Assembly (NCBI RefSeq): GCF_036046055.1
Contig: NZ_CP107939.1
Location: 3,534,001-3,598,000, forward strand
Length of the DNA stretch: 64,000 bases
Origin: Nocardia sp. NBC_00403
Lineage (GTDB): Bacteria > Actinomycetota > Actinomycetes > Mycobacteriales > Mycobacteriaceae
Direction of reading: 5' to 3'
This document shows positions 1 to 59,241 of this stretch, piece by piece; the stretch's first letter is position 1; every line of letters starts with the position of its first letter. Position numbers and translations under genes: made by a program. The notes under the pieces are model-generated. The model was not told where the DNA came from. It was given only the letters and a program-made list of their open reading frames with translations, and made no database searches.

Positions 1-146
1 CGGTGAGCGGGTTCATCATGGCCACCGCCAACGCCACGCACGGCGAATTGTCCTTCAACGTGGGCTATGTCGAGCCCGCGGTATCCCGCGAGCGGGCCGA
101 GCGTCTCGCCGACGAAAGCGTACGCGCGCTGCTGGCCGTTCTCTGA
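1..146 (+). CDS. C-terminal end of a condensation-domain-type protein (partial)
   Basis: An open frame enters from the left edge, starts in frame at base 3 and stops at TGA 144-146, giving the last 47 residues. They contain GELSFNVGYVEPAVSRE followed by an amphipathic helix ending ALLAVL. This matches the closing strand and helix of NRPS condensation domains and related acyltransferases, and resembles the end of the first C domain of the NRPS downstream. It runs in the same direction, 149 bases before that gene, so it probably belongs to the same biosynthetic cluster. The rest of the gene lies outside the window, so full architecture and function cannot be stated. Confidence 0.5.
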   Translation, partial: VSGFIMATANATHGELSFNVGYVEPAVSRERAERLADESVRALLAVL

Positions 147-45815: not shown

Positions 45816-46092
45816 GGCGGGGGACAGTAGGACCAAGGCCGAGGTGTCTGCAGCTGTTCTCTCCGCTTTCGCCGCAACGGCCCCGCTCACCGGGATTCTC
45901 TTCCTGTTCAACAGGATTCCAGTTCCATCCAACGGGATTCACCCTGCCGCAGGAAGATTCAGTGTATGAACGCGGAATATCCTTCATTTCTGCGCACCCG
46001 ACAGCTGCAGGCCACAGGCTAAGATCTCACTGCAGATCTCGTGACGCGAGGCCGCCCTCAGCGGCGTGGGTGGCGTCCTGGATGATGCGGGC

Positions 46093-46488
46093 ATGCTGGT
46101 GCGCACGGAGAAGATGCCGCAGGCCCCGCAGTGGCCGATGAAAGTTCGGGTTCACACGCCCGTCGGAGTCGCCGAGGTGCTCTGGCGCGGTGATCCGCAA
46201 GAAGCCGACGGCCACCACCTCATCGAGTGGACCGTCGATGACGACATCTTCTGGGGCCAGAACACGCAGCCGGCCCCACTTGCCGAGGCGGGACTCCGGC
46301 AGGAAGGCGACAGAGTAGTCGTGCGCGGGCGGCTCCAGCTGACCGAGGACGGCGCTGTGTACCTTCAGATGGGCGACTCACTGATTCTGTTCGATCTTGC
46401 ATCACCAATCCCCGCCAGCACCGACGGCGCCTGGGTGGAGATCAGCGTCGAAGTGAACAGCGTCGCTATCTACCCCTACCAGATCTGA
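46093..46488 (+). CDS. Hypothetical protein, likely cargo of the older element
   Basis: 131 residues from ATG 46093 (MLVRTEKMPQAPQWPMKVRV). Mostly beta-strand: VHTPVGVAEVLWRGDPQEAD, HHLIEWTVDDDIFWGQN, RVVVRGRLQLTEDGAVYLQM, WVEISVEVNSVAIYPYQI. No cysteines or membrane segment. Such small all-beta proteins are common in actinomycete mobile elements, and this gene lies just before the integrase fossil. Function unknown. No clear ribosome site, so the start could be different. Confidence 0.5.
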   Translation: MLVRTEKMPQAPQWPMKVRVHTPVGVAEVLWRGDPQEADGHHLIEWTVDDDIFWGQNTQPAPLAEAGLRQEGDRVVVRGRLQLTEDGAVYLQMGDSLILFDLASPIPASTDGAWVEISVEVNSVAIYPYQI

Positions 46489-46516: not shown

Positions 46517-46726
46517 GACTACCTCGCGTCGATGCTCATCGCGAGCGGCGCGAACATCAAAGTCGTGCAAGCGCGAACACGGCACGCGAACGCGAAAACC
46601 ACGCTCGACACCTACGGTCATCTGTGGCCGGAAACAGACAAGTCCACCCGCCAGGCGATCGCCGGAGTGATTGCCCAACGGGTGGACTCTAATTCTGCTG
46701 CTACCGAGAGCCCGAATCAGGCGTAA
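46517..46726 (+). pseudogene. 3' fragment of a tyrosine-recombinase integrase gene
   Basis: Sixty-nine codons, in frame from 46517 to TAA 46724-46726, match the end of the intact integrase at 57577-57783: DYLASMLIASGANIKVVQAR then TRHANAKTTLDTYGHLWPET. It keeps the last catalytic His and the Tyr of TYGHL but has lost the rest. Protein similarity is high but not identical, so it came from a related, separate element. It ends seven bases before the left att repeat, exactly where an element's int gene would stop. Confidence 0.85.
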
Positions 46727-46733
46727 AAGCCCT

Positions 46734-46763
46734 GGTCAGGCTTACACGTCGAAGTAGAGCTCG
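46734..46763. repeat. attL, 30-bp direct repeat copy
   Basis: Begins GGTCAGGCTTACACGTCG and ends AGTAGAGCTCG. Identical for 30 bases to 57797-57826; the next base differs (G here, A in glnA1). It contains the last 22 coding bases of glnA1 including the stop, in reverse. Confidence 0.9.
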
Positions 46764-46869
46764 GACTAGGAACTGGGCGTTTGGTTCGTTGGTGGCCGTT
46801 GGTCTCGATGGCTGTGAGCTGGGGGTTTGCAGTCATAACGTTGGTCGGAATCGGCTCTCGGTGGGGCCG

Positions 46870-46887
46870 CTGCGTATGAACTGCGTA
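46870..46887 (+). repeat. 18-bp copy of a probable integrase arm site, left side
   Basis: CTGCGTATGAACTGCGTA, identical to 57749-57766 in the same orientation. Each copy contains TGCGTA twice, 11 bases apart (one DNA turn). Weaker similarity extends to GGCCTACTCGT beyond it. In the excised circle the two copies would flank the core as arm-type sites for Int or Xis. The right copy lies inside the end of int. Confidence 0.55.
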
Positions 46888-46931
46888 TGACGAAGGCGGT
46901 CGGACGGCCTACTCGTCGTTCTGTGTGGGCG

Positions 46932-47324
46932 TCATCGGCCGCCGAGTCCCATGCCGGCCATGATGACAGCCGTTAGAGCGTATTCAAAGATAAGGTCCGG
47001 GTCCTGTGTGGCCTCACGTAGGAGCTTGTCTGCGGTAGTTCGGTCTTCGTTGAGTTGGGCGCCTATCAGTCGTAGCGACCATCGTTCTCTCTGCTCCATG
47101 TCCGCTGGCCAGATGTCGGGGACCGGATAGGGACCTGTGTGGGTACCTTCCGGTGATGCTTCGATCAGGCAGTCGACCCAAAACAAGATGGCCTCGGCTA
47201 TTCCCTCGCTGTCGACCGATTCGTCTTCGATGAGCTGTCGGACCTTCATCCCGGCTGATGGATCCTCTGATATCGCTGCTCTGAGTGCCACGCGTGCGTG
47301 CTGAAGCCAAACTGGATCTGCCAT
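46932..47324 (-). CDS. Small hypothetical protein at the left end of the element
   Basis: 130 residues from ATG 47324 (MADPVWLQHARVALRAAISE), with GGGGG five bases upstream. All-helical appearance: MKVRQLIEDESVDSEGIAEA, ILFWVDCLIEA, LRLIGAQLNEDRTTADKLLR, EYALTAVIMAGMGL. No known motif. It faces outward towards attL, the usual place for accessory cargo in an AICE. Function unknown. Confidence 0.55.
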   Translation of the reverse strand: MADPVWLQHARVALRAAISEDPSAGMKVRQLIEDESVDSEGIAEAILFWVDCLIEASPEGTHTGPYPVPDIWPADMEQRERWSLRLIGAQLNEDRTTADKLLREATQDPDLIFEYALTAVIMAGMGLGGR

Positions 47325-48195
47325 CGGATCCCCCAATGCCGCTGAAATCGTTCCTGGACCGAGCCTTTCGGTCGGTCACCAGTTTAGGACGCGGTTCTGA
47401 CGAGCCGACGGTTTCGTCAGCTCGGTGACTTCCCTTCCCCTGCTTCCTCATACTGGCCATCCCTGAGCGGAGGGAGGGCGTGTCAAGGGCGCTCTTTCCC
47501 TTGACTCGTCCGAGTGAGGTCAGACAATTGGGCCATGAGGAGGCAGGGATCTACGCAACCATAGCCAGTCACCCTGTCCGCGGATTCCGTTCAGCAATTC
47601 ACTTGCACCTGGTGAGCGGCTTGGTGATCGGGCAAAAGGCCGGCCTTTTCGGCTGATCGGTGACGGCTCGGTGACCTCCTACGCGGGCTCGGCAGGCTGG
47701 GTCTTATGAGGCAAGCGAGCGAAGCTCGTGCGGCAGCACCGTATGAGAGTCAGTGCGCTGGGGGCCGTCGATCGGGCAGAGTGGCGGCCGGTTCGGGTCG
47801 GCGATCCGTTCAGCAATTCGCTGCCGGGCACACGTCCACAGCTCGGATCGGTGCTGTAGTGAGCAATCAGGAGTCTGGGTGCACGCTGTTGGCGTATGCG
47901 TGCTGCCGACGCGCCCGGTGGGCCGCCAGCGCAGCCAGGCACGCCGGTTGCGTGGCGGCGGCGCGCATGCGCCGTCGCGCGCTCTTGACTCTATATAGCG
48001 AAATTCAGCAACAACTTCGTGAAGTGACAGGCGCTCTGCAACTGGGGGCGTCGGACACGGGGCCTCGTCGTGGAATCGGTTGCCGTTCTTGCGATTCCGC
48101 TCGGACTGCTCAAGTACGCTGGGATCACCTCCAGCTCAGGGGCGGTGTGGCAGCTGGTCCAGGCCGCATCGCGCCGAGGAAGGAGGTGGTGGGAG
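47325..48195. other. 871-base region without a confident gene; candidate cis-acting transfer locus
   Basis: Open frames here are short and unlike known proteins. The DNA has structure: a 16-bp perfect palindrome AAAAGGCCGGCCTTTT at 47634-47649; a 15-bp direct repeat TCCGTTCAGCAATTC at 47586-47600 and 47805-47819; and the octamer TCGGTGAC three times in one orientation (47422-47429, 47657-47664, 47668-47675). TraB-type translocases of actinomycete plasmids recognise repeated 8-bp sequences at a clt locus, so this region is a candidate. A long frame at 47706-48311 (plus) cannot be excluded but lacks signals. Confidence 0.4.
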
Positions 48196-48315
48196 ATGGC
48201 GAAACATCGCCGGAGCAAAACAAAGGCCCCGGTCGACTACGGCATCGTCTTGATCGGTGCTGCCGTGATCGCCGGGGCGCTCATGTTGGTCCGCCGAGTC
48301 TGGCTGGCTAGCTAA
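48196..48315 (+). CDS. 39-residue membrane peptide of the element
   Basis: ATG 48196 preceded by AAGGAGGTGGTGGGAG, a strong ribosome site. Product: basic start MAKHRRSKTKAPVD then one hydrophobic helix YGIVLIGAAVIAGALMLVRR. An in-frame GTG at 48070 would give 81 residues but lacks a good site. Small membrane proteins of this sort are frequent in AICEs (Spd-type spread functions). Followed by a hairpin at 48324-48356 (GGGCAGG / CCTGCCC) that could end its transcript. Confidence 0.5.
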   Translation: MAKHRRSKTKAPVDYGIVLIGAAVIAGALMLVRRVWLAS

Positions 48316-48406
48316 ACCCACCAGGGCAGGGCGTCGGTAGCAACGGCGTCCTGCCCGCTCGGCATCACTCACGTGACTGCTTAAGGATACTTGACTTTGT
48401 ACGGCA

Positions 48407-48425
48407 CATGCCATGCTATGGCATG
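48407..48425. promoter_or_regulatory. Perfect inverted repeat CATGCCAT-GCT-ATGGCATG
   Basis: An 8-bp perfect inverted repeat with a 3-base spacer, 18 bases beyond the stop of the XRE regulator. TTGACT at 48391-48396 precedes it at promoter-like distance, so it may be an operator on a rightward promoter antisense to the regulator gene. A weak terminator for that gene is the alternative. Confidence 0.4.
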
Positions 48426-48442
48426 GCTCGTATGCCCCACGT

Positions 48443-49675
48443 CTAGCGGACAGTGCGCGCGAGTGCTTGCAACTGGAGGCGGTATTCATCGGCCTCGGGT
48501 TCGCCTGCGTACCGGTCGGTGAGCACGGCAGTGAGATCGCGCGAGACCATGAGCAATGACGGAACCGATTTTCGGTCGGTCGATATCGCTCGCCGTCCGT
48601 AGTGGATGGCTTCGGATAGCTCGCCTTCGCGGGCTGCGGCTACGGCCAACGTTATGCGTGCCTCAGCGCTCCGCATGGGGGTGTGGTCTGTGCCGTCGAA
48701 GTCGGAGCGTCCGTTGCGTAGGACTTCTTCGGCGAGAGTTCGCGCGATGCGATCGTTCCCGGTATGGCGGTAGCAATCCATCGCATAGAAGTCGAACTTT
48801 GCGGGATCAACTACAAAGTGATTGTGGATATTGTCGGGATAGGGCATGCGGTCAAGTACTTGGCGACCTCTTTCGAGTGCTACTTCCATCTCGTCGGCAT
48901 GTCCCATTCTCGCGAGGGCTTTCGCCTCCTGGGCTATGAGTTGGACCTGGACACCATGGCTGCCGGCCGCGGCTTGACCTGCCTCGGCTGCGGCGATCAC
49001 TCCCCGGTAGTTGCCACTTGTAAGGGCGAACCACGCTTGCAGCTCGTGCGACCAACCGAGGATGCCTGGATTCTCGATCTCGGTTCCCAGTTTCAACGCC
49101 ATCTTTCTGGTGGCGTCCGCTGCTCGTCTATCGCCGAGGTCATATTCGAGGCAGCCAACGAGAAGTGCAAGCCATCCAGCGAGTTCGAGCGTACGACGGC
49201 GCTGCCGGAACGTGAGATGGCGTTCTTGCATGTCAACGATGCGCCGGAGCCACTGCCGACCTTCGATTATGAGGTCTTGGGGTGGCGTGTAGGAGTATTC
49301 GGAGCAGAGTTTGTCGACTGTGATGTGCAAAGCCTCGATCGTGGCGTCTGTGACGTCCGAGGCGTGCAAGCGACCGATGATTTCGAGTGTGTCCATGCCA
49401 GTAGCCGAGAGCAACGACAGGTCGAGTTCGCGGGATTGTGGCGGAAACAGGGAATCGGTGACCGTGCCGAGAGTGGCGGCGATCAAGCTCGCATACTCGC
49501 GGCTCGGCTTGTTCTCGCCCAGTTCCCATGCTTTCCATCGCCGGATTAGGTGCTCTGCATCCGGCAATGTGCGATCTGCGTGAGTGCGCATGACCGCCGC
49601 GGCTTCGGACTGCGAGTAGCCTCGGGCCTCTCGCAATGCTCGAATACGCCGTGCCCAGTCGGGTTGTTCAGCCAT
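48443..49675 (-). CDS. XRE-family regulator with TPR-like domain (element-borne)
   Basis: 410 residues from ATG 49675 (MAEQPDWARRIRALREARGY). The helix-turn-helix reads RRIRALREARGYSQSEAAAV with RRWKAWELGENKPSREYASL. The rest is helical repeats: LAGWLALLVGCLEYDLGDRR, HELQAWFALTSGNYRGVIAA, AQEAKALARMGHADEMEVAL, DCYRHTGNDRIARTLAEEVL. Proteins of this form regulate transfer or cargo genes on actinomycete plasmids and may bind signal peptides through the TPR part. It is transcribed away from the transfer operon and probably autoregulated. Confidence 0.82.
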   Translation of the reverse strand: MAEQPDWARRIRALREARGYSQSEAAAVMRTHADRTLPDAEHLIRRWKAWELGENKPSREYASLIAATLGTVTDSLFPPQSRELDLSLLSATGMDTLEIIGRLHASDVTDATIEALHITVDKLCSEYSYTPPQDLIIEGRQWLRRIVDMQERHLTFRQRRRTLELAGWLALLVGCLEYDLGDRRAADATRKMALKLGTEIENPGILGWSHELQAWFALTSGNYRGVIAAAEAGQAAAGSHGVQVQLIAQEAKALARMGHADEMEVALERGRQVLDRMPYPDNIHNHFVVDPAKFDFYAMDCYRHTGNDRIARTLAEEVLRNGRSDFDGTDHTPMRSAEARITLAVAAAREGELSEAIHYGRRAISTDRKSVPSLLMVSRDLTAVLTDRYAGEPEADEYRLQLQALARTVR

Positions 49676-49849
49676 CGCGCGTCTGCTCCTGCTTAAGGGA
49701 TCGGTACACCACAAGTGTCCTGGCGCCGATAGGTGTTGGCGAGGTGTTGCCGGGGTGATACACGCCCATCACCCTTGTCACCAAGTCCACACCCCGAGTG
49801 ACACTGTTTCGCGGACTGGCCTGGCGGCAGAGTAGTTGACATGCAGAAA

Positions 49850-50203
49850 CTACTGATGAGCTTGATCAACGGATTGACTGGCTTCGATTCGCTCGACTCG
49901 TTCCGCGAGGTCGCTGATCCGTGATCTGAGGTCCCGAACTTCGTCGGCAAGTGAGTGATCTTGCTCAGCTGGTATGGAGTCGCTGACAAAGACACCCAGG
50001 GACGGAGTGGAAAACGTCCAGCCTTCGTCACACAACGTGCGTACGGCTTTTGCCGCGGTCATGGGCGCAATGTCGTATTCGTCCGCGAGGGCTCTCTGGG
50101 ATGAGATCCGGTCACCGGGCTTTAGTTCTCCGGACTTGATCTTCTTCTGGATATCCCCCACGACCTGCCGGTATGGGGCTCGCCCGGTGTTGGTGTCACT
50201 CAT
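49850..50203 (-). CDS. GntR-family repressor (KorSA-like)
   Basis: 117 residues from ATG 50203 (MSDTNTGRAPYRQVVGDIQK). Winged helix of GntR type: QVVGDIQKKIKSGELKPGDR, ISSQRALADEYDIAPMTAAK, AVRTLCDEGWTFSTPSLGVF. The C-terminal effector domain is missing; instead a short coiled coil (DEVRDLRSRISDLAERVERI) follows, suited to dimerisation. In pSAM2 a GntR protein, KorSA, represses transfer and replication genes; position here, divergent from the transfer operon with an inverted repeat between, matches that role. Confidence 0.87.
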   Translation of the reverse strand: MSDTNTGRAPYRQVVGDIQKKIKSGELKPGDRISSQRALADEYDIAPMTAAKAVRTLCDEGWTFSTPSLGVFVSDSIPAEQDHSLADEVRDLRSRISDLAERVERIEASQSVDQAHQ

Positions 50204-50211
50204 AAGGCCAG

Positions 50212-50240
50212 CATACCGACAGCTGCCATAGGTCGGTATG
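50212..50240. promoter_or_regulatory. Inverted-repeat operator for the GntR repressor
   Basis: Perfect 9-bp arms CATACCGAC (50212-50220) and GTCGGTATG (50232-50240) with an 11-base spacer, nine bases upstream of the gntR start. GntR dimers bind such symmetric sites, so the repressor probably controls its own gene and the divergent transfer operon here. Confidence 0.7.
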
Positions 50241-50270
50241 GACACGATCCGGCAACAGGCATTGCTAACC

Positions 50271-50290
50271 GCACTAGGGTGCACTAGGGT
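50271..50290 (+). promoter_or_regulatory. Tandem 10-bp repeat and likely promoter of the transfer operon
   Basis: GCACTAGGGT occurs twice without spacer at 50271-50290, one helical turn apart, directly followed by GGTATATATCAG, a possible -10 element. It lies 72 bases before the first gene of the operon and next to the GntR operator. A second regulator binding here is possible. Confidence 0.5.
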
Positions 50291-50362
50291 GGTATATATC
50301 AGTTAAGTGGCATGGAACTAACCGAGGCCACGAAAAGGCAAACAACACAAGGAGATACGACC

Positions 50363-50806
50363 ATGGCACTCAAGGGCTACCGCTTCCCCATCTCCCACGC
50401 CGAAGCCTTCCCTCAGGGCTTGGTTTTGGTCGGCCAGATCGAGGCGCTGACCAAGTACAACCCGGATCGCAATGCAGTGCCTGAGCAGCGTCGTGATTTC
50501 GACGTGAAGACAGGCGAGGGCACGGGCCTGCTGATGTGGAAGGCCACGGTCACCGATCCGTCGGAGACGAATTCCAGGCGCGCTAGCTTCCAGTTGATCT
50601 TCGTGGCCGAGAACGTCCCGGTGCCCTCGACACCGGAGGTGTTGCCGGGTATGCGTCAGATCGAGCTGGAGGGTCTGCTCGCCGAGCCGAAGGTCATGGG
50701 TCAGGGCGAGTTCAAGTACCAGGGCTTCAACTTCTATGCCGGTGGCATCAAGGGCGACAACTCCGGCGCGAAGGTCAACCAGCCTGCCGCGGCGAAGGCT
50801 GCGTGA
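50363..50806 (+). CDS. Conserved AICE protein, first gene of the transfer operon
   Basis: 147 residues from ATG 50363 with AAGGAGAT upstream. Starts MALKGYRFPISHAEAFPQGL, then mostly beta strands: VLVGQIEALTKYN, GTGLLMWKATVTDPSETNSR, ASFQLIFVAENVPVPSTPEV, IELEGLLAEPKVMGQGEFKY, GFNFYAGGIKGDNSG. The pattern resembles small OB-fold-like proteins commonly encoded upstream of the translocase in these elements; a single-strand-DNA-binding role is possible but not shown. Leads a run of closely spaced genes to 54567. Confidence 0.65.
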   Translation: MALKGYRFPISHAEAFPQGLVLVGQIEALTKYNPDRNAVPEQRRDFDVKTGEGTGLLMWKATVTDPSETNSRRASFQLIFVAENVPVPSTPEVLPGMRQIELEGLLAEPKVMGQGEFKYQGFNFYAGGIKGDNSGAKVNQPAAAKAA

Positions 50807-51075
50807 TCGTCATGTCGTACATGAGTGTTCGGTCGGTCCGCTCCACGGGCATCGAGCTGCACTACGAGGCTGCCCGCGCAACCGAGTTCGGCTTGGAGGT
50901 TCCGGCCTGTGTGTACGTCTACCTCGACGAGGCGGGCTACGCGACGCTTCAACTGACGATGGACGACGCTCGGGTCCTGGCCGAGATGCTGCCGGGGCTG
51001 GTGATGGCTCACGACGCCACCGAGCATGCCGCAGCAGAGCACGCCGCGGCTGTGGCTGAGTCCAAGGCGGCGTGA
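50803..51075 (+). CDS. Small hypothetical AICE protein
   Basis: 90 residues from GTG 50803, which overlaps the previous stop (GTGA); ATG 50812 is the alternative start. Contains STGIELHYEAARATEFGLEV, CVYVYLDEAGYATLQLTMDD and an Ala/Glu-rich tail. No membrane segment or metal motif. Similar short genes lie upstream of spd and tra in pSAM2-like elements. Function unknown. Confidence 0.55.
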   Translation: MIVMSYMSVRSVRSTGIELHYEAARATEFGLEVPACVYVYLDEAGYATLQLTMDDARVLAEMLPGLVMAHDATEHAAAEHAAAVAESKAA

Positions 51076-51743
51076 CCGTGAGCGCGGCGGATCAGCAGTC
51101 CAAGGGGATGGCGTGGGCTCGCTGGTCCGCCGTTCTCGTTGTCGTGGTCATCGGTGTTGCCGCGTTCGTGTTGTCGTTCGCGGCGTTAGAGGACCTCGCG
51201 AAGAAGGCCCATACACCCGAACGGTTGGCGTGGCTGTTCCCGGTCATCGTGGACGGCACCATCATTCAGGCCACCATCGCTGTGTTGGCGTTGGCCGACA
51301 GTGACGGCCGTAAGTGGTTCGAACGTGTCCTGGTCGCTGGGGCGGCGGTCTCGATCGGCGGCAACATCGCTCACGCTCTGGTGTCCGGTCACGGTGTCGG
51401 TGCTGCCGTGCTCGCGGTGATCGCCCCGGCTGCTCTGCTGATCGACACACACGGCCTGGCGGTGCTGTTGCGCACCCACCGACCCGTTCCGAGCGAACCG
51501 GCTGAGCCCGTAAGGGATTCCGCGCCCGTCGAATCCTCGACCCCCGAACCACTCACCGCGGAACCTCCGGTCGCCGAACCCCTGGCCCCGGAACCCGTCC
51601 CGGTGTCCGTGCCGGTGAGTTCCCCGATTCCGCCGGCACCTGTCCGGCTCATCGCTCCACCGAGGCATGTGGCTCAACCCTTCCAACCCCCGCGTCCGAT
51701 ACCAGTCCGGCCGGTCGCGGTTCCTGTCAACGGAGGCAACTGA
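51072..51743 (+). CDS. DUF2637 membrane protein (plasmid spread, Spd-like)
   Basis: 223 residues from GTG 51072, overlapping the previous stop. Four hydrophobic helices: WSAVLVVVVIGVAAFVLSFA, LAWLFPVIVDGTIIQATIAV, RVLVAGAAVSIGGNIAHALV, AAVLAVIAPAALLIDTHGLA. The tail is Pro/Val/Glu-rich (SEPAEPVRDSAPVESSTPEP). This is the DUF2637 pattern, a family linked to spread of actinomycete plasmids through the mycelium with the TraB pump. It probably forms part of a membrane complex with the translocase at 51978. Confidence 0.8.
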   Translation: MTVSAADQQSKGMAWARWSAVLVVVVIGVAAFVLSFAALEDLAKKAHTPERLAWLFPVIVDGTIIQATIAVLALADSDGRKWFERVLVAGAAVSIGGNIAHALVSGHGVGAAVLAVIAPAALLIDTHGLAVLLRTHRPVPSEPAEPVRDSAPVESSTPEPLTAEPPVAEPLAPEPVPVSVPVSSPIPPAPVRLIAPPRHVAQPFQPPRPIPVRPVAVPVNGGN

Positions 51744-51744
51744 C

Positions 51745-51978
51745 ATGGCAGAACACAGTTCGTTCATGACGATTCACCACAGTGACTACAGCCTGAACTC
51801 CCAGGCTATCGGCACTGACCTCGCCGCCGCCTACATCCCCGCGATCGGCATGGTGATGGTCTGTGTCGGCAACGGATCGCTGTGCATGTTCCCCGACCAG
51901 GCCGCCGAGCTGATCGAGATGGTCACCGCGGCTCTCGACTCCCACACCTCAACGACGCAGGCCAAGGCGGTGGCGTGA
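51745..51978 (+). CDS. Small hypothetical AICE protein
   Basis: 77 residues from ATG 51745 (MAEHSSFMTIHHSDYSLNSQ). Weak hydrophobic middle (DLAAAYIPAIGMVMVCVG) and DQAAELIEMVTAALDSHTS at the end. It is not predicted as clearly transmembrane. Its TGA overlaps the ATG of the translocase gene (TGATG), so the two are translationally coupled. Function unknown. Confidence 0.6.
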   Translation: MAEHSSFMTIHHSDYSLNSQAIGTDLAAAYIPAIGMVMVCVGNGSLCMFPDQAAELIEMVTAALDSHTSTTQAKAVA

Positions 51979-53252
51979 TGAGTTTGGCAACCACGTTGCC
52001 CCCACTGGCCGCGATAGCCGGTGGTGTGGGCATGGCGGCTCGGATGGCGTACTGGTCGCGGCAGAAACCTGCGGCTCGTAAGGAAACGGTCGCCGATTGG
52101 GTGGCTGCGGCACCGGTCGAGTTGAAGGCTTCGATCCTGGTGTTCTGCGATCGCCAGCAAGAGCTGATGCTGTGGCGTGAGCTGGATCTCGGCTCGGAGG
52201 ATGACGGGTTCCCCACGGTCCTGGATGTCGAGTACACCGCCTACGGGCTGGATGTGGACGTGCAGATGCGCGGTGGCCACAAACTGTCCGACTGGACCGA
52301 TCAGAACACCCTCGACGCGTTCGCCCAGTACCTCGGCGTTCCCGAAGTCACCGCGGCCTCGTCGTCTCCCGGATTCATCCGTATCCAGGTCAGAGTCCAC
52401 GACACCCTCGCTGCTGATGTGCCGGTGCCGACCGAAGTGCCTGATCACGTGGATTTGGAAGCGGTCACCGCAGGAGTGTTCGAGGACGGCCAGAGCTGGA
52501 CTGTTCCGATCCAGGGCCGTCACGTCCTGATAGCCGGCGGAACGGGTTCGGGTAAGTCGAGCGTGTTGTGGTCGCTGGTCAACGGCATGGGTCCGGCGAT
52601 CCGTTCCGGTCGGGTGGAGTTGCGGGTGATCGACCCGAAGGGCGGCATGGAGCTGGGGTACCTGGAACCACTGTGCACCCGGTTCGCCTGCACCGGCGAA
52701 GAGGAAATGGTCGGACTGCTCGAGGAGACCGTCACCGATCTTCAAGAAGCCACGCAACGCTACCGCGGCAAGGTCCGCAAACCCGTTCCTACACCGCAGA
52801 ACCCCTTGGTTGTCACGATCATCGATGAGGCGGCGACGCTCTCGGCGTTCTCGGACCCGAAGAAGCAGGCGCGGTTCGAACGCGCTCATGGTCTGCTGCT
52901 GTCGCAGGGACGCGCACCGTTGTATTCGGTGATCGAGACGGTGATCGATCCGTCGAAAGAGAATGTGCCGCAACGGCAGTTGCTTCCGTACCGGGTCGGT
53001 ATGCGGATGGACGAAGCCGCCCAGGTCGCCATGATCCACGGCCAGGGCGCCCGTAACCGCGGCTCGTACTGTGACCGGATCCCGCATACGACACCGGGCG
53101 TTTGCTATGTGCAGGAGGACGGTAAGGCTGGTTTCCAGCGGGCTCGGGCGTTCATGGTCACCGACGCCGATGTGGACCGGATCGTGGCGCAGTACAAGCC
53201 GATCCCTCGCCCGGTCGACCTGGACGCGTTCGCCCAGGGGCGTGCGGCATGA
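51978..53252 (+). CDS. FtsK/SpoIIIE-type DNA translocase for conjugation (TraSA/TraB-like)
   Basis: 424 residues from ATG 51978. A short hydrophobic start (LPPLAAIAGGVGMAARM) anchors it. Walker A is LIAGGTGSGKSSVLWSLVNG near residue 187, Walker B is LVVTIIDEAATLSAFSD near 281, and RVGMRMDEAAQVAMIHGQGA near 347 contains the arginine-finger/sensor region. In AICEs one such hexameric pump moves double-stranded DNA to the recipient, unlike type IV systems. It lies in the repressor-controlled operon. Confidence 0.9.
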   Translation: MSLATTLPPLAAIAGGVGMAARMAYWSRQKPAARKETVADWVAAAPVELKASILVFCDRQQELMLWRELDLGSEDDGFPTVLDVEYTAYGLDVDVQMRGGHKLSDWTDQNTLDAFAQYLGVPEVTAASSSPGFIRIQVRVHDTLAADVPVPTEVPDHVDLEAVTAGVFEDGQSWTVPIQGRHVLIAGGTGSGKSSVLWSLVNGMGPAIRSGRVELRVIDPKGGMELGYLEPLCTRFACTGEEEMVGLLEETVTDLQEATQRYRGKVRKPVPTPQNPLVVTIIDEAATLSAFSDPKKQARFERAHGLLLSQGRAPLYSVIETVIDPSKENVPQRQLLPYRVGMRMDEAAQVAMIHGQGARNRGSYCDRIPHTTPGVCYVQEDGKAGFQRARAFMVTDADVDRIVAQYKPIPRPVDLDAFAQGRAA

Positions 53253-53572
53253 GGACAGGGTTTGTCATGGAGTGCCATGTGGTCATCTACTGCGACGGCT
53301 GCGGCGACACCTACACCGAGAACACCGGTGAGGGTATCTGTTTCGACACGGTCAATCAGGCTGTCGGCTACCTCAACGCCCGATCCGCTGGTGTCGGCTG
53401 GGCCTATGACGGCGACAAGGTTCTCTGCGACGGCTGCCAAGCATTGGCCCGCTGCACCGAACACGGTCACACCTTCCCCGAACGCCGTATCTCCCTGCGG
53501 CGGCTCACCAAAACCACCCATTCCCGCACCTGCACCGTGTGCGGCATCTCCGAAACCGAGGTCCTGTCATGA
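53249..53572 (+). CDS. Zinc-ribbon small protein of the element
   Basis: 107 residues, start ATGA-overlapping the translocase stop. Metal-binding pairs: VVIYCDGCGDTY, KVLCDGCQALARC and RTCTVCGISETEVL, that is CxxC three times, enough for one or two zinc ribbons. The middle has FDTVNQAVGYLNARSAGVGW. Possibly a DNA-binding accessory of transfer. No close family recognised. Confidence 0.6.
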   Translation: MRTGFVMECHVVIYCDGCGDTYTENTGEGICFDTVNQAVGYLNARSAGVGWAYDGDKVLCDGCQALARCTEHGHTFPERRISLRRLTKTTHSRTCTVCGISETEVLS

Positions 53573-53745
53573 ACACCAGCAGCCGTTACGACGACAACGT
53601 CATCGACCTGCAAGCCCGTCGCCGCTGCCAGCTGCAAGCCCGTGGCCTCGATCCCGTCACGGTCGCGGTTCACGTGCTCGCCGAAACCGGGACACTGCCG
53701 GCTTGGGGCAGCGATGACTACGACGGTGGGGACTGGGCGGCATGA
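53569..53745 (+). CDS. Small hypothetical AICE protein
   Basis: 58 residues from ATG 53569 (MNTSSRYDDNVIDLQARRRC), overlapping the previous stop by ATGA. A basic first half is followed by GLDPVTVAVHVLAETGTLPA and an acidic end DDYDGGDWAA. No motif recognised. The reading frame is kept by overlaps on both sides, which supports it being translated. Confidence 0.5.
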   Translation: MNTSSRYDDNVIDLQARRRCQLQARGLDPVTVAVHVLAETGTLPAWGSDDYDGGDWAA

Positions 53746-54041
53746 ACAGCCACGGGTCTTCACACGGCTATTGGAAACCGGAGCGGGGTATGGACTTTCA
53801 CCGGGTGCTGGTCTCCGCCGATCGTGGGCATCTGCGCGAATCGTGCGAGGTATTCGCCAACTACCTTCCCGACGCCACCCAGCAGCGACAGATCCAGGTG
53901 ACCCTGCACAAGGAACACAACTTTGCCGCCGTGCTGCATCTGGCCATGACCGTAGACGACGCCATCGCGGTAGTTGGTGTGCTGCAAGCCGCAATCCGAC
54001 AGGCGACAGGCGGCGAGCACGACTGGGAAGACCTGTCATGA
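53742..54041 (+). CDS. Small hypothetical AICE protein
   Basis: 99 residues from ATG 53742 (MNSHGSSHGYWKPERGMDFH), ATGA overlap. Alternating strands and helices: HRVLVSADRGHLRESCEVFA, QQRQIQVTLHKEHNFAAVLH, LAMTVDDAIAVVGVLQAAIR. No recognised family. Predicted soluble. Part of the overlapping chain 53249-54567. Confidence 0.5.
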   Translation: MNSHGSSHGYWKPERGMDFHRVLVSADRGHLRESCEVFANYLPDATQQRQIQVTLHKEHNFAAVLHLAMTVDDAIAVVGVLQAAIRQATGGEHDWEDLS

Positions 54042-54208
54042 GCGGCACTGCGAAACCTGTTTCGCAACAACGGAATTCAACGAATCGGATCGTTGCGAAG
54101 GCAGCAGCGTCGATCCGGAAGCCGCGTCCCAAACGCAAGAACCTGCACGAACCCTGCCCAGGACAGCTGACCCTGTTCGCACCACCCGAGAGAGGGACAC
54201 CGAAATGA
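54038..54208 (+). CDS. Small basic hypothetical AICE protein
   Basis: 56 residues from ATG 54038 (MSGTAKPVSQQRNSTNRIVA), ATGA overlap with the gene before and after. Strongly basic middle: KAAASIRKPRPKRKNLHEPC, so it might bind DNA or RNA. Short and without a named domain. Confidence 0.45.
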   Translation: MSGTAKPVSQQRNSTNRIVAKAAASIRKPRPKRKNLHEPCPGQLTLFAPPERGTPK

Positions 54209-54567
54209 CCCGGTCGATCGTTTCCCCGGTTCGTGCCCGCTACCTCGCCTGGTACCGCTACCGGCGCCGTTGGACCCGTCTCATGACCACCGCCCGCCTC
54301 ACCCGCACGACTGACGACGGCGCCATCCGTGTTCCGCGGTTGTTGTCGGTTCGTATCGGTGAGGCCACCGACCGGGTTCGGGTGCGGATGCTCGACGGAC
54401 ACTGCCCCGCCGACTACGAAAACCGCACCATCCAGCTCGCCGGCACCTTCGGCGCACGTGGCTGTGACGCCGCCTTGATCGGCCCTGGAACGGTGGAAAT
54501 CATTCTCCACCAACAAGATTCACCAGCAATTGCCGCACTATCGAACGACTTGGACGACGTGGCATGA
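54205..54567 (+). CDS. Small hypothetical AICE protein, possibly DNA-binding
   Basis: 120 residues from ATG 54205 (MTRSIVSPVRARYLAWYRYR), overlapping the previous stop. The N-terminal half is Arg-rich (RRRWTRLMTTARLTRTTDD), the rest beta-rich: PRLLSVRIGEATDRVRVRML, AGTFGARGCDAALIGPGTVE. It resembles the N-terminal part of plasmid TraB-region proteins but I cannot name it. Last gene of the overlapping chain; a strong hairpin follows. Confidence 0.5.
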   Translation: MTRSIVSPVRARYLAWYRYRRRWTRLMTTARLTRTTDDGAIRVPRLLSVRIGEATDRVRVRMLDGHCPADYENRTIQLAGTFGARGCDAALIGPGTVEIILHQQDSPAIAALSNDLDDVA

Positions 54568-54580
54568 CCGACATGGTCGA

Positions 54581-54622
54581 CGGAGGCCGGACCGGGGACA
54601 CCAACCCCTGATCCGGCCTCCG
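54581..54622. repeat. Strong hairpin between transfer operon and rep gene
   Basis: Perfect 11-bp arms CGGAGGCCGGA (54581-54591) and TCCGGCCTCCG (54612-54622), with an inner GGGG/CCCC pairing possible in the 20-base loop. No T tract follows. It may be an attenuator or part of the double-strand origin nicked by the initiator encoded 47 bases downstream. Confidence 0.6.
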
Positions 54623-54668
54623 GGCACTGATCAGTCGAATTCCGAAACACGAAGGGGGACAACACGTT

Positions 54669-56381
54669 ATGGCTGCACCGATCATCGGTATCGCCCCCAA
54701 CCGGGAAACCGCCGCCGACCGACGCGCGATGCCCGACATCAACGACATCGCCGAATCAGCCGCCGAAAAAGAAGGCGTGTGCGCTCGGGTCGTGCCGATG
54801 CGGGCGTTCGATCCGATCACCTCCCGCACCTCTTATGTCGGCGCCCCCTGCAAGTCCACGAACGCCACGACCTGTCCGGCCTGCGCGAAAGCCAACCGGT
54901 ATCTGCGCATGACCCAGCTGCGCGAAGGCTGGTGCACCGAACACGAACCCGTCGACACCACAACCGAACCGACCCAAGCCCAGCAAGACGTATTAGCCGG
55001 TCGCGCAATGTTTTTCACCGACTATCACGATGCTCGCCGCGACGGTGATGACGAACTCGCCGATGCGATCAAAGCGTTGGTGGCCGATATGGATGTCGAG
55101 CTGCGTGCACTCGGTGTCCGGGGCAAGCTCCCACCGCTGGACGCCAAGCCCCGCCGTAAAGCGAAGTCCACGCGCCGCCGTGACGACGTGCCGGACCTGC
55201 CACGCAAGAAGGTCAACAAGGCCCTGACCGTGGGCGCCGCGTACGCGGACGGTAAGTATCGGCCCTCGACGTTCTTCACTATCACCCTGGACTCGTACGG
55301 GCACATCAACAAGGTCCGCGACCCCAAGACCGGGAAGATGGTCTCCGATGGTTCCCCGCGTGACCCGGAGTCCTACGACTACACCCGTCAGGCCCGCGAC
55401 ACCATCCACTTCGCCCGGTTGTTCGACCGGTTCATGCAGAACCTGCGCCGGGCGGTCGGCTGGAACGTCCAATACTTCGCGACCGTGGAACCACAGAAAC
55501 GTGGTGCCCCGCACCTGCATATCGCTATCCGGGGTTCGATCCCCTCGCAGTTGCTGTATCAGGTCACCGCGGCGACTTACGTCAACATTTGGTGGCCGCA
55601 CTTCGACAAGCCCGTGTACAGCGATGCGAATATGCCGCAGTGGGACTACAAGGCCGGCACTTTCACCGACCCCCGCACCCACAAGCCGCTCACCTATTGG
55701 GATGACGCGCTGGAAACGATGGATTCGGTCGGTGACCTCGAACCGGCCCACACGCTGAAGTTCGGTGGTCAGTCCAAGGCGGTGCAGATCCTCGGCGGCA
55801 CGGAAGAGATGGACATCAAGGTCCGGTATCTGACCAAATACCTGACCAAGTCCATCGGGGAAGTCCTGGAGACCGACTCGACTCGCGTTGCGGTGCATTA
55901 CGACCGGCTCCACGCCGAGCTGCAGCAGACTCCGTGCTCGCCTCGGTGTGGTGTGTGGTTGCGCTACGGCATCGTCCCGAAAGGCGCCACCGAGAAGACC
56001 CAGCCGGGCAAGTGCAAAGGCCGTGCGCACCGCCGCGACACCCTCGGCCTGCCCGGTCGACGTTGCTTGAACTCGGGCAAGTGGTCGGGCAAAACGATTC
56101 CCGATCACAAAGCTGATCGCCTCGACTTCGTCCGCCAGCAACTCGCCGCTGTCGGCATCTACCCGCCGGATACCTCGCATCTGCGGATCACACCGGTTGG
56201 GCCTGGCGACAAGGACGCGCCACCGCGGTCGCATCTGGTCATGGCGCTGGTGGCTGCCCGGATCAACCAACGCGCCGACTACACCAAAGCGCGGCTCGCC
56301 AGGACCGAGGGGCCACCAGGAGATACCTGGGGAACCGTTGTGTCGCAAGAGTTTTCGACTGTTCAGCAATCAGCAGCATAG
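54669..56381 (+). CDS. Rolling-circle replication initiator (RepSA-like)
   Basis: 570 residues from ATG 54669. HUH motif in GAPHLHIAIRGSI (His-Leu-His near residues 281-283) and the catalytic Tyr region VRYLTKYLTKSIGE near 385. Upstream FFTITLDSYGHINKVRDPKT and FMQNLRRAVGWNVQYFATVE are conserved in actinomycete Rep proteins; cysteine pairs (CPACAKANRY, CSPRCGVWLRYG) suggest zinc binding. It nicks the origin and starts rolling-circle copying of the excised circle. It sits next to xis-int, as in pSAM2. Confidence 0.9.
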   Translation: MAAPIIGIAPNRETAADRRAMPDINDIAESAAEKEGVCARVVPMRAFDPITSRTSYVGAPCKSTNATTCPACAKANRYLRMTQLREGWCTEHEPVDTTTEPTQAQQDVLAGRAMFFTDYHDARRDGDDELADAIKALVADMDVELRALGVRGKLPPLDAKPRRKAKSTRRRDDVPDLPRKKVNKALTVGAAYADGKYRPSTFFTITLDSYGHINKVRDPKTGKMVSDGSPRDPESYDYTRQARDTIHFARLFDRFMQNLRRAVGWNVQYFATVEPQKRGAPHLHIAIRGSIPSQLLYQVTAATYVNIWWPHFDKPVYSDANMPQWDYKAGTFTDPRTHKPLTYWDDALETMDSVGDLEPAHTLKFGGQSKAVQILGGTEEMDIKVRYLTKYLTKSIGEVLETDSTRVAVHYDRLHAELQQTPCSPRCGVWLRYGIVPKGATEKTQPGKCKGRAHRRDTLGLPGRRCLNSGKWSGKTIPDHKADRLDFVRQQLAAVGIYPPDTSHLRITPVGPGDKDAPPRSHLVMALVAARINQRADYTKARLARTEGPPGDTWGTVVSQEFSTVQQSAA

Positions 56382-56395
56382 GAAGGTATCCAGCG

Positions 56396-56605
56396 ATGAT
56401 CGAGAATGACGTGTTCCTCCGGGCCAAGCAGTGTGAGGAACTGACCGGGATTCCAGAAGCAACGTGGCGGTGGTGGGCGCACGTCGGCCGTGGCCCGGAA
56501 TCGTTCAAGCTGGGTCCGCGTCGACGGGTCTGGCGAAAGTCCGTCGTGCTGGCCTGGATCGCCGAACAGGAGCAGGCCACCGGTAGCAACCCGGCAGCGG
56601 CATAG
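56396..56605 (+). CDS. xis: Excisionase (Xis), winged-helix/MerR-like
   Basis: 69 residues from ATG 56396. The helix-turn-helix reads FLRAKQCEELTGIPEATWRW, then GRGPESFKLGPRRRVWRKSV, VLAWIAEQEQ. This is the usual small DNA-bending protein of actinomycete integrative elements, which helps Int to excise the element. Its stop TAG shares a base with the int GTG start, so int is coupled to it. It is 14 bases after the rep stop. Confidence 0.85.
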   Translation: MIENDVFLRAKQCEELTGIPEATWRWWAHVGRGPESFKLGPRRRVWRKSVVLAWIAEQEQATGSNPAAA

Positions 56606-57783
56606 TGGCTACTCGACGTAATCGCCGCTCCGGTATCGAAGACCTCTGGACCAAGGAGAAACGTCTACCGGATGGCTCGATGCAGCGAGTGCCTTCCGCG
56701 ATCCATGGCAAGTGGAAGCGTTGGCGTGCGAGGTATGTGGATGACACCGGTCAGGAGCATTCGAAGACCTTCGCCCGCAAGACTGATGCAAAGACATGGC
56801 TGAATGGTCAGATGTCCTCGCTGGTGCAGGGCACGCACGTTGCGCCGAAGGACATGCGGCGCACGGTTTCGGAATGGTGTGAGGAGTGGCTCCGCGGCTA
56901 CGCCAACAACCGGGACGGAACTGTGCGCCAGGCCCGCGTCCACATTGCCCAGATCAACGCGGAGTTCGGTGGTGTGCAGCTGGCAGCCATCCGGCCGTCC
57001 GCAATCAAGACGTGGACGGCCAAGCTCAAGGCCCGCGGTCACGAGCCCAGCTATATCTACGCGTTGCACGGTCGGCTGTCTCAGATCCTCAGTGATGCTG
57101 TGCTGGACGGCATCCTGGCGCGCAATCCGTGCTCGAAACGGACGACTCCGCCGATGGGCAAGCAGAAGGTCTATTGCGCTACCACCGAACAGGTTTGGGC
57201 GCTCCACGACCTGATGCCAGCGCATTTGCGGCCCGCGATCCTGCTCGGGGCTTTCGCTGGACTCCGCATCTCCGAAGCGTGCGGACTGCGGGTGCTGGAT
57301 GTTGATTTCGTGCGGGGTGTCGTCCACCCGAAACAACAGTGGCCCGCCAGGGAGCTGAAGACGGATGGCTCCGAAGCTCCTATCCCGATACCGCGTGAAC
57401 TCGCTCTTTTGCTGTCGTCAGCTGTTCAGCAACGTCCGGGGGAGCGTGTACTCACCGATGACGACGGCAAGTCGGTCCCGCCCTGGCAGATCGATCGTGC
57501 GCTACGGGCGGTGCGCGGGGATGTAGTCGGCCTTCCCGAGGAGTTCGGGTTTCAGGACCTGCGTCACTACCTGGCGTCGCTGCTGATTGCGAACGGGGCG
57601 AACATCAAGGTGGTTCAGGCCAGAATGCGGCACGCGACGGCGAAGACGACTCTCGACACGTACGGGCATCTGTGGCCGGATACGGACGAGTCCACCCGCC
57701 GCGTGATCTCGTCTGTGATCACGGAACGGATGGACTCGATGCCGTCTACTGCGTATGAACTGCGTACGAAACGGGCCAAGTAG
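56605..57783 (+). CDS. int: Tyrosine-recombinase integrase of the element
   Basis: 392 residues from GTG 56605. An arm-type N-terminal domain (KWKRWRARYVDDTGQEHSKT) and SAM-like core-binding domain (GYANNRDGTVRQARVHIAQI) precede the catalytic domain. Catalytic residues: Arg in GAFAGLRISEACGL near 220, Arg-His in QDLRHYLASLLIANG near 320, His in RMRHATAKTTLD near 342, Tyr in TYGHLWPDTD at 353. The usual box-II His-x-x-Arg His is Gln here (QDLRH), common in this group. It recombines attP with the 3' end of glnA1. Ends 13 bases from the attR core. Confidence 0.95.
   Translation: MATRRNRRSGIEDLWTKEKRLPDGSMQRVPSAIHGKWKRWRARYVDDTGQEHSKTFARKTDAKTWLNGQMSSLVQGTHVAPKDMRRTVSEWCEEWLRGYANNRDGTVRQARVHIAQINAEFGGVQLAAIRPSAIKTWTAKLKARGHEPSYIYALHGRLSQILSDAVLDGILARNPCSKRTTPPMGKQKVYCATTEQVWALHDLMPAHLRPAILLGAFAGLRISEACGLRVLDVDFVRGVVHPKQQWPARELKTDGSEAPIPIPRELALLLSSAVQQRPGERVLTDDDGKSVPPWQIDRALRAVRGDVVGLPEEFGFQDLRHYLASLLIANGANIKVVQARMRHATAKTTLDTYGHLWPDTDESTRRVISSVITERMDSMPSTAYELRTKRAK
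57749..57766 (+). repeat. 18-bp copy of a probable integrase arm site, right side
   Basis: CTGCGTATGAACTGCGTA inside the last codons of int, 30 bases before the attR core. See the left copy at 46870-46887. Confidence 0.55.
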
Positions 57784-57796
57784 GCCTATTCGTGCA

Positions 57797-57826
57797 GGTC
57801 AGGCTTACACGTCGAAGTAGAGCTCG
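57797..57826. repeat. attR, 30-bp direct repeat copy at the glnA1 3' end
   Basis: Identical to 46734-46763. Bases 57805-57826 are the last codons and stop of glnA1, so the element restores an intact gene on integration. It begins 13 bases after the integrase stop. Confidence 0.9.
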
Positions 57827-59241
57827 AACTCGTACGGGTGCGGGCGGAGGTTCACCGGGGCGATTTCCTGCTCGCGCTTGATGGAGATCCAGGTCTCGAT
57901 CAGGTCCTCGGTGAAGACGTTGCCTTCGGTGAGGTAGTCGTGGTCCTGCTCGAGCTTGTCGATGACCGACGCCAGGCTGGTGGGGGCCTGGGGGATGTTC
58001 TTGGCCTCCTCCGGCGGGAGCTCGTAGAGGTCCTTGTCGACCGGGGCCATCGGCTCGAGCTTGCGCTTGATGCCGTCCAGGCCCGCCATCATCATGGCGG
58101 CGAAGGCCAGGTACGGGTTGCCCGAGGAGTCCGGCGCGCGGAACTCGATGCGCTTGGCCTTCGGGTTGTTGCCGGTGACCGGGATACGCACGGCAGCCGA
58201 GCGGTTGCGCTGCGAGTACACCAGGTTGATGGGGGCCTCGTAGCCGGGAACCAGACGGTGGTAGGAGTTCACGGTCGGGTTGGTGAACGCCAGCAACGAC
58301 GGGGCATGGTGCAGGATGCCCCCGATGTAGTGACGCGCCAGATCCGACAGACCCGCGTAACCGGCCTCGTCGTGGAACAGCGGCTTGCCGTCCTTCCACA
58401 GCGACTGGTGCACGTGCATGCCCGAGCCGTTGTCACCGAAGAGCGGCTTCGGCATGAAGGTGACGGTCTTGCCTTCCTGCCATGCGGTGTTCTTCACGAT
58501 GTACTTGAACAGCTGCAGGTCGTCGGCGGCCGAAAGCAGGGTGCCGAACTTGTAGTTGATCTCGGCCTGACCGGCGGTGCCGACCTCGTGGTGGCCGCGC
58601 TCCAGCTCGAAGCCCGCTTCCTGCAGGTTGGTCGAGATCTTGTCGCGCAGGTCGACGTAGTGGTCGTACGGAGCGACCGGGAAGTAACCGCCCTTGTTGC
58701 GAACCTTGTAACCGCGGTTGCGGGTGCCGTCCGGGTTGAACTCCGCGCCGGTGTTCCACGAACCCGAGATCGAGTCGATCTCGTAGAACGCGCCGTTCAT
58801 CCCCGATTCGTAGCGCACCGAGTCGAAGATATAGAACTCCGCCTCGGCGCCGAAGTAGGCGGTGTCGGCGATACCGGTCGAACGCAGGTACTCCTCGGCC
58901 TTGCGCGCGATGTTGCGCGGGTCGCGGCTGTAGGCCTCGCGGGTGAACGGGTCGTGCACGAAGAAGTTGAGGTTCAGGGTCTTCGCGGCGCGGAACGGGT
59001 CCAGTCGCGCGGTGCTGAAGTCGGGGAGTAGGAGCATGTCCGACTCGTCGATCGACTGGAAGCCACGGACGGAGGAGCCGTCGAACGCGAGCCCTTCCTC
59101 TGCGAGGTCGGTGGTGAACGCCTTCGCGGGAATCGAGAAGTGCTGTTGTACACCAGGAAGATCGCTGAAGCGGATGTCGACATACTCGACTTCCTCGTCA
59201 GCGAGGAATTTGATGACCTCGTCGGCCGTGCTGAACGTCAC
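57805..59241 (-). CDS. glnA: Glutamine synthetase type I, GlnA1
   Basis: 478 residues. Motifs: [93 protein letters not shown]. Tyr406 in [14 protein letters not shown] is the adenylylation site for GlnE. It makes glutamine from glutamate, ammonia and ATP and is the main enzyme under high demand. Regulated through a full GlnR operator upstream. The last 22 coding bases form the attR core, yet the reading frame and end (YEFELYFDV) are intact, so insertion did not damage it. Confidence 0.98.

Follow-up and report, generated by a model that had tools for sequence, protein, structure and literature searches.

A probable actinomycete integrative and conjugative element at the 3′ end of glnA1 in Nocardia sp. 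NBC_00403, and an integrase family that recurs at this site

The element, its ends and its target

A 64,000-nt stretch of the Nocardia sp. NBC_00403 genome (contig NZ_CP107939.1, positions 3,534,001 to 3,598,000; here called the window) carries an 11-kb element with the make-up of an actinomycete integrative and conjugative element (AICE). The element lies in the last codons of glnA1, the gene for a type I glutamine synthetase, and is bounded by a 30-nt direct repeat, GGTCAGGC-TTACACGTCGAAGTAGAGCTCG, that is identical at 46734-46763 and 57797-57826. The features at its ends are listed below, with att for attachment site; L and G numbers are our handles for loci and genomes.

46518..46726, + strand: scar of an older element, a C-terminal remnant of a related integrase left of attL (67% identical to residues 315-381 of the intact integrase)
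46734..46763, no strand: attL, 30-bp direct repeat with the 22-bp core at 46742-46763; exact match to 57797-57826
46870..46890, + strand: probable left arm-type sites, paired CTGCGTA with 11-bp spacing, +128/+139 from the core
57749..57769, + strand: probable right arm-type sites, paired CTGCGTA within the last integrase codons, -56/-45 from the core
57797..57826, no strand: attR, 30-bp direct repeat; the core, 57805-57826, is the last 7 codons of glnA (stop included) plus one nucleotide
57805..59241, − strand: glnA1, type I glutamine synthetase, 478 aa, the integration target (TIGR00653, 672 bits)

The "1" in glnA1 is our assumption, from the size of the gene and its neighbours. The right copy of the repeat consists of the final 22 nt of glnA and 8 nt past the stop codon, so that the first-pass annotation, made from the sequence of the window, was correct in taking it for the end of the gene. 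The last codons are restored at the right end, as had also been proposed: the exact repeat carries the last 7 glnA codons, stop included. The repeat had further been described as perfect over 30 bp. It is indeed exact over that length, but the att core is only about 22 bp, comprising these last 7 codons. The extra 8 identical bases are present because the insertion abutted the right end of an older element, which precedes attL in the window (ggtcaggc, then TTACACG). With up to 3 mismatches allowed, the 22-nt core pattern is found in the window at these two positions only, and 0 of 100 shuffled sequences gave a match. A tRNA gene as the target was rejected, as there is no tRNA near either end and the sole tRNA of the window, at 941-1022, is 45 kb off.

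In seven other loci (L005-L008, L012, L016 and L017) the exact run common to both ends is 17-27 nt, and in the five Nocardia elements among them (L005-L008 and L017) it is 17-23 nt. In these five, other DNA precedes attL (e.g., tacgac, then TTACACG), and in the Nocardia vulneris element (L007) the preceding DNA is that of the empty-site chromosome. Pairs of att repeats were found in G053, G069 and G131 as well. Two elements differ between their own cores: N. vulneris at core position 1, with, at the glnA stop, TTA in attL versus CTA in attR; and L006 at core position 4, with TTAGACG in attL versus TTACACG in attR. The simplest reading of these differences is that glnA takes its stop-codon side from the element, and the crossover would then lie to the right of core position 4.

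Pairs of the motif CTGCGTA, 11 bp apart, are found at +127..129/+138..140 from the left core and at -56/-45 from the right core in 6 of the 11 elements tested (the window, L005, L006, L007, L008 and G053). In L017 the left pair is accompanied by a single right copy, shifted to -67. The left pair lies within 1 bp of the window's position in L005-L008, L017 and G053. As background, the middles of the 11 elements together hold 2 forward and 2 reverse copies. The pairs are probable arm-type integrase sites.

Genes of the element

48443..49714, − strand: helix-turn-helix (HTH) regulator, NsdA-like tetratricopeptide repeat protein (NF053720, 91.2 bits, cut-off 75)
49850..50284, − strand: GntR-type repressor (PF00392, 43.7 bits), presumably KorSA-like, from its position
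50312..50806, + strand: protein conserved in related AICEs, no Pfam match (50% identical in G053; 85% over residues 17-112 in G025)
51072..51743, + strand: DUF2637 protein (PF10935, 69.3 bits)
51882..53252, + strand: FtsK/SpoIIIE-type DNA translocase, probable Tra (PF01580, 41.6 bits, cut-off 24)
54669..56381, + strand: RepSA replication initiator (PF20199, 304 bits)
56396..56605, + strand: HTH_17/AlpA-like protein, probable excisionase, between rep and int (PF12728, 21.3 bits, and PF05930, 20.5 bits, both below cut-off)
56605..57783, + strand: tyrosine integrase (PF00589, 57.5 bits; R221, R320, H343 and Y353, with Q317 for the HxxR histidine)

Between the repeats are thus found RepSA, an FtsK-type Tra, a GntR repressor, a DUF2637 protein, a candidate excisionase and a tyrosine integrase, in keeping with the earlier description of a complete-looking AICE. 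The marks of an AICE are present in the form of a recombinase beside att, att repeats with a recognisable target, an FtsK/SpoIIIE-type translocase and RepSA; a tRNA site, which is usual but not required, is absent. Gene set and order are what we take to be those of a pSAM2-type AICE (on our assumption RepSA, FtsK-type Tra, KorSA-like GntR, Xis and Int), and the element resembles that type in gene set, order, size and its 304-bit RepSA match, but differs in using the glnA1 3′ end and not a tRNA gene. Eight further small open reading frames (ORFs) have no Pfam match above cut-off. The int stop codon is 13 nt short of attR, and the window displays the arrangement that marks the integrase family, in which int adjoins the 3′ end of glnA and the last codons of that gene are repeated. 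Residues R221, R320, H343 and Y353 are presumed to be catalytic. The HxxR histidine is replaced by glutamine (Q317, in QDLRHY) in this integrase and in many, not all, of the aligned relatives, in Nocardia and beyond. The host genome is one closed 8.73-Mb contig with one full copy of the integrase gene.

It should be considered that the AICE landed site-specifically and is now unable to move. The genome has no other full copy, the HxxR histidine has given way to glutamine, and AICEs are described as prone to decay (PMC9513070). This is nevertheless unlikely, since the Int, Rep, Tra and HTH genes are open frames of full or nearly full length, the glutamine is shared with many relatives, and the arm-site pairs and cores are intact. 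The 11-kb element in the last codons of glnA is probably self-transmissible.

Insertion on the scar of an older element

The glnA site that the element entered was not a virgin one, as the integrase tail of an older element was already there (46518-46726). Within this scar, 46518-46689 is 78% identical at the nt level to 57566-57737, the 3′ part of the element's own int (172 nt). In G142 the same scar, 87% identical to that of the window, is fused directly to glnA, and the AICE is absent. When the flanks of the window element are joined and aligned with G142, the alignment starts at the scar and runs unbroken across the joint, with 91.3% identity over 1,724 nt. Left of the scar, G142 has approximately 2.2 kb more than the window, followed by a common phosphatase-gene flank. 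By this alignment the G142 locus is the state before AICE insertion, and the window AICE is the upper layer of a stack on a decayed predecessor. A second comparison involves the 7,181-bp element of N. vulneris, whose joined flanks match the G031 locus with 98.4% identity over 1,070 nt across the joint; aligned in this way, the two are a filled and an empty site. Element-free sites in relatives had been set as a test beforehand, and both forms were found, G142 with the scar only and G031 empty for the N. vulneris element.

Similar layering is seen elsewhere. G103 has two integrase tails about 1.75 kb apart, each next to a core; Haloactinopolyspora alba (L012) has an integrase tail immediately ahead of attL; and G025 displays tandem junctions of right end, core and left end on two contigs. 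Left of the window scar is a 140-aa ORF (46066-46488) with no Pfam match and a relative of 74% nt identity in G060, away from glnA; it is perhaps cargo of the older element.

The repeats and the two integrase tails could in principle stem from segmental duplication, or from homologous recombination between resident elements, and not from successive integrations. The 78% identity of the tails and the tandem junctions in G025 are compatible with this. However, the G142 scar stands beside glnA without the AICE and its flanks match across the joint, which largely refutes the proposal; moreover, the scars of G142 and the window are closer to each other (87%) than the window scar is to the element's own int, and single insertions are found in other genomes. 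Duplication is therefore very improbable, and successive integration is the reading retained here.

Recurrence of the integrase family at glnA

Related integrases or pieces of them were found at 23 loci in named genomes of eight actinobacterial families, and at 21 of these glnA adjoins the match (Nocardia, Mycobacterium, Micromonospora, Haloactinopolyspora, Tetrasphaera with two loci on one contig, Leifsonia, Paeniglutamicibacter and a Sporichthyaceae bin). The exceptions, L010 and L018, have no glnA neighbour. Counted among the 23 are two loci from one contig (L013 and L014), as well as L026, where 513 nt separate the tail from glnA. In 396 genomes sampled evenly across the phylum, 4 genomes, the window's included, had a match at E 1e-70 or better, all 4 beside glnA. 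Among 150 Nocardia genomes, 19 (the window's again included) have an unbroken integrase match, defined as at least 350 residues with a minimum identity of 59%; 10 of these are beside glnA, 7 beside ccsB and 2 beside neither. Broken integrases are found beside glnA in G139, G016 and G020 and beside ccsB in G099 and G120, and that of G114, split in two frames, is beside neither. The expectation that the family maps to the glnA 3′ end is thus upheld at 21 of 23 loci in the named genomes and for 10 of the 19 unbroken Nocardia integrases. Judged by these neighbourhoods, the integrase family favours glnA; it is carried by different mobile elements.

Three integrase loci are from viral contigs; L259 shares its ORF layout with Micromonospora rosaria L011, and L259 and L260 end just past int. 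No near relatives of the integrase, at 60% identity or more, were found among 133 matching plasmid records (the first listed has 32%) or among 1,132 phage records. A megablast search of plasmids with the whole element gave one match, of 428 nt, to a Nocardia farcinica record. In the Sporichthyaceae bin (L023) a 38-nt copy of the glnA 3′ end is found about 2.5 kb from glnA (at about 7774 and 10242), and this glnA adjoins the tail of an integrase: the remains of an element that decayed in another family.

DNA 3′ of glnA was surveyed in 129 of the 150 Nocardia genomes (all but the window's genome, G054 and G131-G149), which gave 130 loci. Integrase sequences were detected at 30 of these: 6 full, 2 partial and 22 tails. 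The ends of glnA were located with a DNA pattern together with a match of 45 C-terminal residues, which may have let in a few glnA paralogues; two ends came from G085. The downstream DNA available was about 1,500 nt in 30 loci and about 3,000 nt in most others; L124, L128 and L164, with less than 400 nt, were counted as having no integrase. Of the 22 tail loci, 7 retain both probable arm sites. A GCAGGTC flank of the element type is found in 12 further loci without a detectable integrase (background, 20 of 3,152 stretches), which is no more than suggestive.

Compared by their flank DNA over 150 nt past the tail, the 24 partial and tail loci make up 17 groups with nothing in common between them, which suggests many separate events; flanks are common to relatives in two groups of four scar loci and in one pair, and old common flanks may have been lost elsewhere. 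That adjacency to glnA was inherited from one ancient insertion, and does not reflect repeated choice of the site, is hardly credible: some scars do share flanks, and very old ones could have vanished, but 17 groups have none in common, the interiors of complete elements differ, an empty site is seen in G031, and glnA-adjacent integrases are found in several families of the phylum. Repeated insertion at the glnA 3′ end is thus preferred.

Changes of target and of cargo

A tree was drawn for 36 integrases, and in it the 8 rows associated with ccsB group as a single clade with support of 99/99. This clade is drawn among the glnA rows, with moderate support of the placing branch (85/90) and midpoint rooting only. 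Six tRNA-Arg(CCT) rows, about 34% identical to the window integrase, are far outside. Duplicates (L014 of L013, L018 of L041) and second fetches of the same genomes were left out of the tree, as were the broken integrases L017/L047, L048 and L055; L010 is represented by just its longest open piece. Clustering of site labels is seen on the tree, with 5 changes versus a mean of 15.6 when shuffled. There is not one clade of integrases with one target: 5 changes are required for the 19 glnA rows, with the ccsB clade drawn between them.

The ccsB product matches Pfam Cytochrom_C_asm in L018, and the proteins at nine others are 72-100% identical to that of L018; the gene name ccsB is our assumption. 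Related integrases are found at the ccsB 3′ end in Nocardia donostiensis (L018:1609-11260) and in L036, L041-L046, L048 and L049; in L018 a major head protein and a primase are encoded upstream of int. In G041 (L234:1540-13290, G041:C1) a glnA-type junction of right end, core and left end is present between ccsB repeats. It keeps the arm words and a short trace of an int tail in one reading frame, and may be a fossil attP or, alternatively, a tandem junction that was captured. An exact match to this junction is found in G041 only among the 150 Nocardia genomes; when up to 3 mismatches are allowed, the number of matching genomes is 26, and almost all of these match at the glnA end itself.

The cargo varies behind one integrase. 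By tblastn the window RepSA and Tra are absent from L005-L008 and L017. The Nocardia transvalensis element at glnA (L008:955-11195, 10.2 kb) has both att cores and all four arm words, and encodes a portal protein (phrog_104, 357 bits), a major head protein (phrog_10, 156 bits) and a phage-type replication initiator (40 bits); in gene content it looks like a capsid-encoding phage satellite. Upstream of int in Micromonospora rosaria L011, whose element borders were not set, an ORF matches portal, head protease and major head families, and a primase/polymerase is also encoded. By the gene content of L008 and L011, the integrase travels with AICEs and with capsid-encoding, satellite-like elements.

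Modules are shuffled within AICEs too: G053 is 88% identical to the window in int, 58% in rep and 49% in tra, whereas the values for G025 are 64%, 88% and 86%. The tRNA-Arg elements L051 and L054 have RepSA and HTH proteins 70-71% and 85-88% identical to those of the window (in the parts fetched), and by this measure are the window's backbone with another integrase and another site. The replication initiator of an 11.2-kb Micromonospora rosaria plasmid record, presumably pMR2, is 42% identical to that of the window.

Discussion

The ends and genes of the element, the scar, the pre-insertion state and the recurrence of the site are all found at the sequence level, and we put a probability of about 0.9 on the reading that an AICE docked at glnA1 by site-specific recombination, on the scar of an older element, by means of an integrase family that returns to this site. 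Crossover inside the core, the role of the arm sites, excision and transfer would follow from this arrangement. In this reading the tyrosine integrase recombines the identical last codons of glnA1 with the attP core, which is about 22 bp long, and the stop and last codons of the gene are restored by the element. The AICE would then be excised as a circle by Int and the HTH protein, replicate by RepSA, and be transferred as double-stranded DNA by the FtsK-type Tra.

Several results weigh against this reading. The exact attP pattern of an excised circle had 0 matches in viral contigs, and the genome is a single closed contig with one full int copy, so that no circle is seen. The excisionase is assigned from sub-threshold profile scores, its position and conservation being in accord, and Tra from weak ones, the product of 51882..53252 scoring 23.2 bits against NCBIfam TraB, far below the cut-off of 800. 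CTGCGTA pairs are absent in 4 of the 11 elements (L012, L016, G069 and G131), and the arm sites of other subfamilies must therefore be different. At 100 of the 130 Nocardia glnA ends no integrase is detectable, the integrases of G007 and G111 (unbroken) and G114 (split) have neither gene, glnA or ccsB, as a neighbour, and in viral locus L261 the 7.8 kb to the right of int contain no glnA.

That AICEs accrete, switch integrases and use protein genes as sites is already known. In the main text of one survey, AICEs with tyrosine recombinases are mostly in tRNA genes, the pSLS subfamily being excepted without its site being named (PMC3218068); compared by that description, pSLS elements resemble the present one in having tyrosine integrases without tRNA sites. 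In a Streptomyces population, 36 of 51 insertions were in tRNA genes, 14 in protein genes and 1 was intergenic, with accretion at tRNA-Arg and integrase switching between tRNA-Val and rlmN (PMC9513070). AICE03 of Streptomyces RLB3-6, at rlmN, is similar to the elements described here in its protein-gene target and in the switching of integrases on one backbone, and the stacked AICEs at tRNA-Arg in having accreted where an ancient trace is present (PMC9513070). These AICEs have another target and another integrase, and a correlation of integrase sequence and site is denied for them, whereas here site labels cluster on the integrase tree. One AICE-like contig is reported in Mycolicibacterium, with no mention of glnA in the accessible text (PMC8190616).

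The first-pass annotation had proposed glnA as an undescribed AICE site. No element at glnA was found among the literature matches listed, supplementary site tables being outside their scope, and glnA is not given as a site in the accessible parts of PMC12884075, PMC11755657, PMC8270828, PMC8218464, PMC12169178 and PMC6071183. The proposal stands to this extent, but AICE sites in protein genes are known (rlmN, PMC9513070); glnA as a site is apparently new, not proved.

Taken jointly, the results incline us to view the glnA 3′ end as a shared docking site of actinobacteria, used by one integrase lineage with a fixed att architecture. This module would be passed between two kinds of competitor for the site, conjugative AICEs and satellite-like elements that encode capsids; the last codons would be overwritten, and the layered integrase-tail fossils would serve the next element as targets. 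A clade retuned to ccsB would have arisen once, with G041 keeping a glnA-type, attP-like junction.

The 3′ end of a central enzyme gene, essential in M. tuberculosis according to PMC2667176, serves many elements, and each insertion replaces the last codons and the downstream DNA. The glnA site is thereby a marked fossil record of successive elements. As related integrases are found at glnA or ccsB, with att pairs and probable arm sites located, they offer a testable system for change of target, and the glnA 3′ end may serve as a landing site for integration vectors in actinobacteria.

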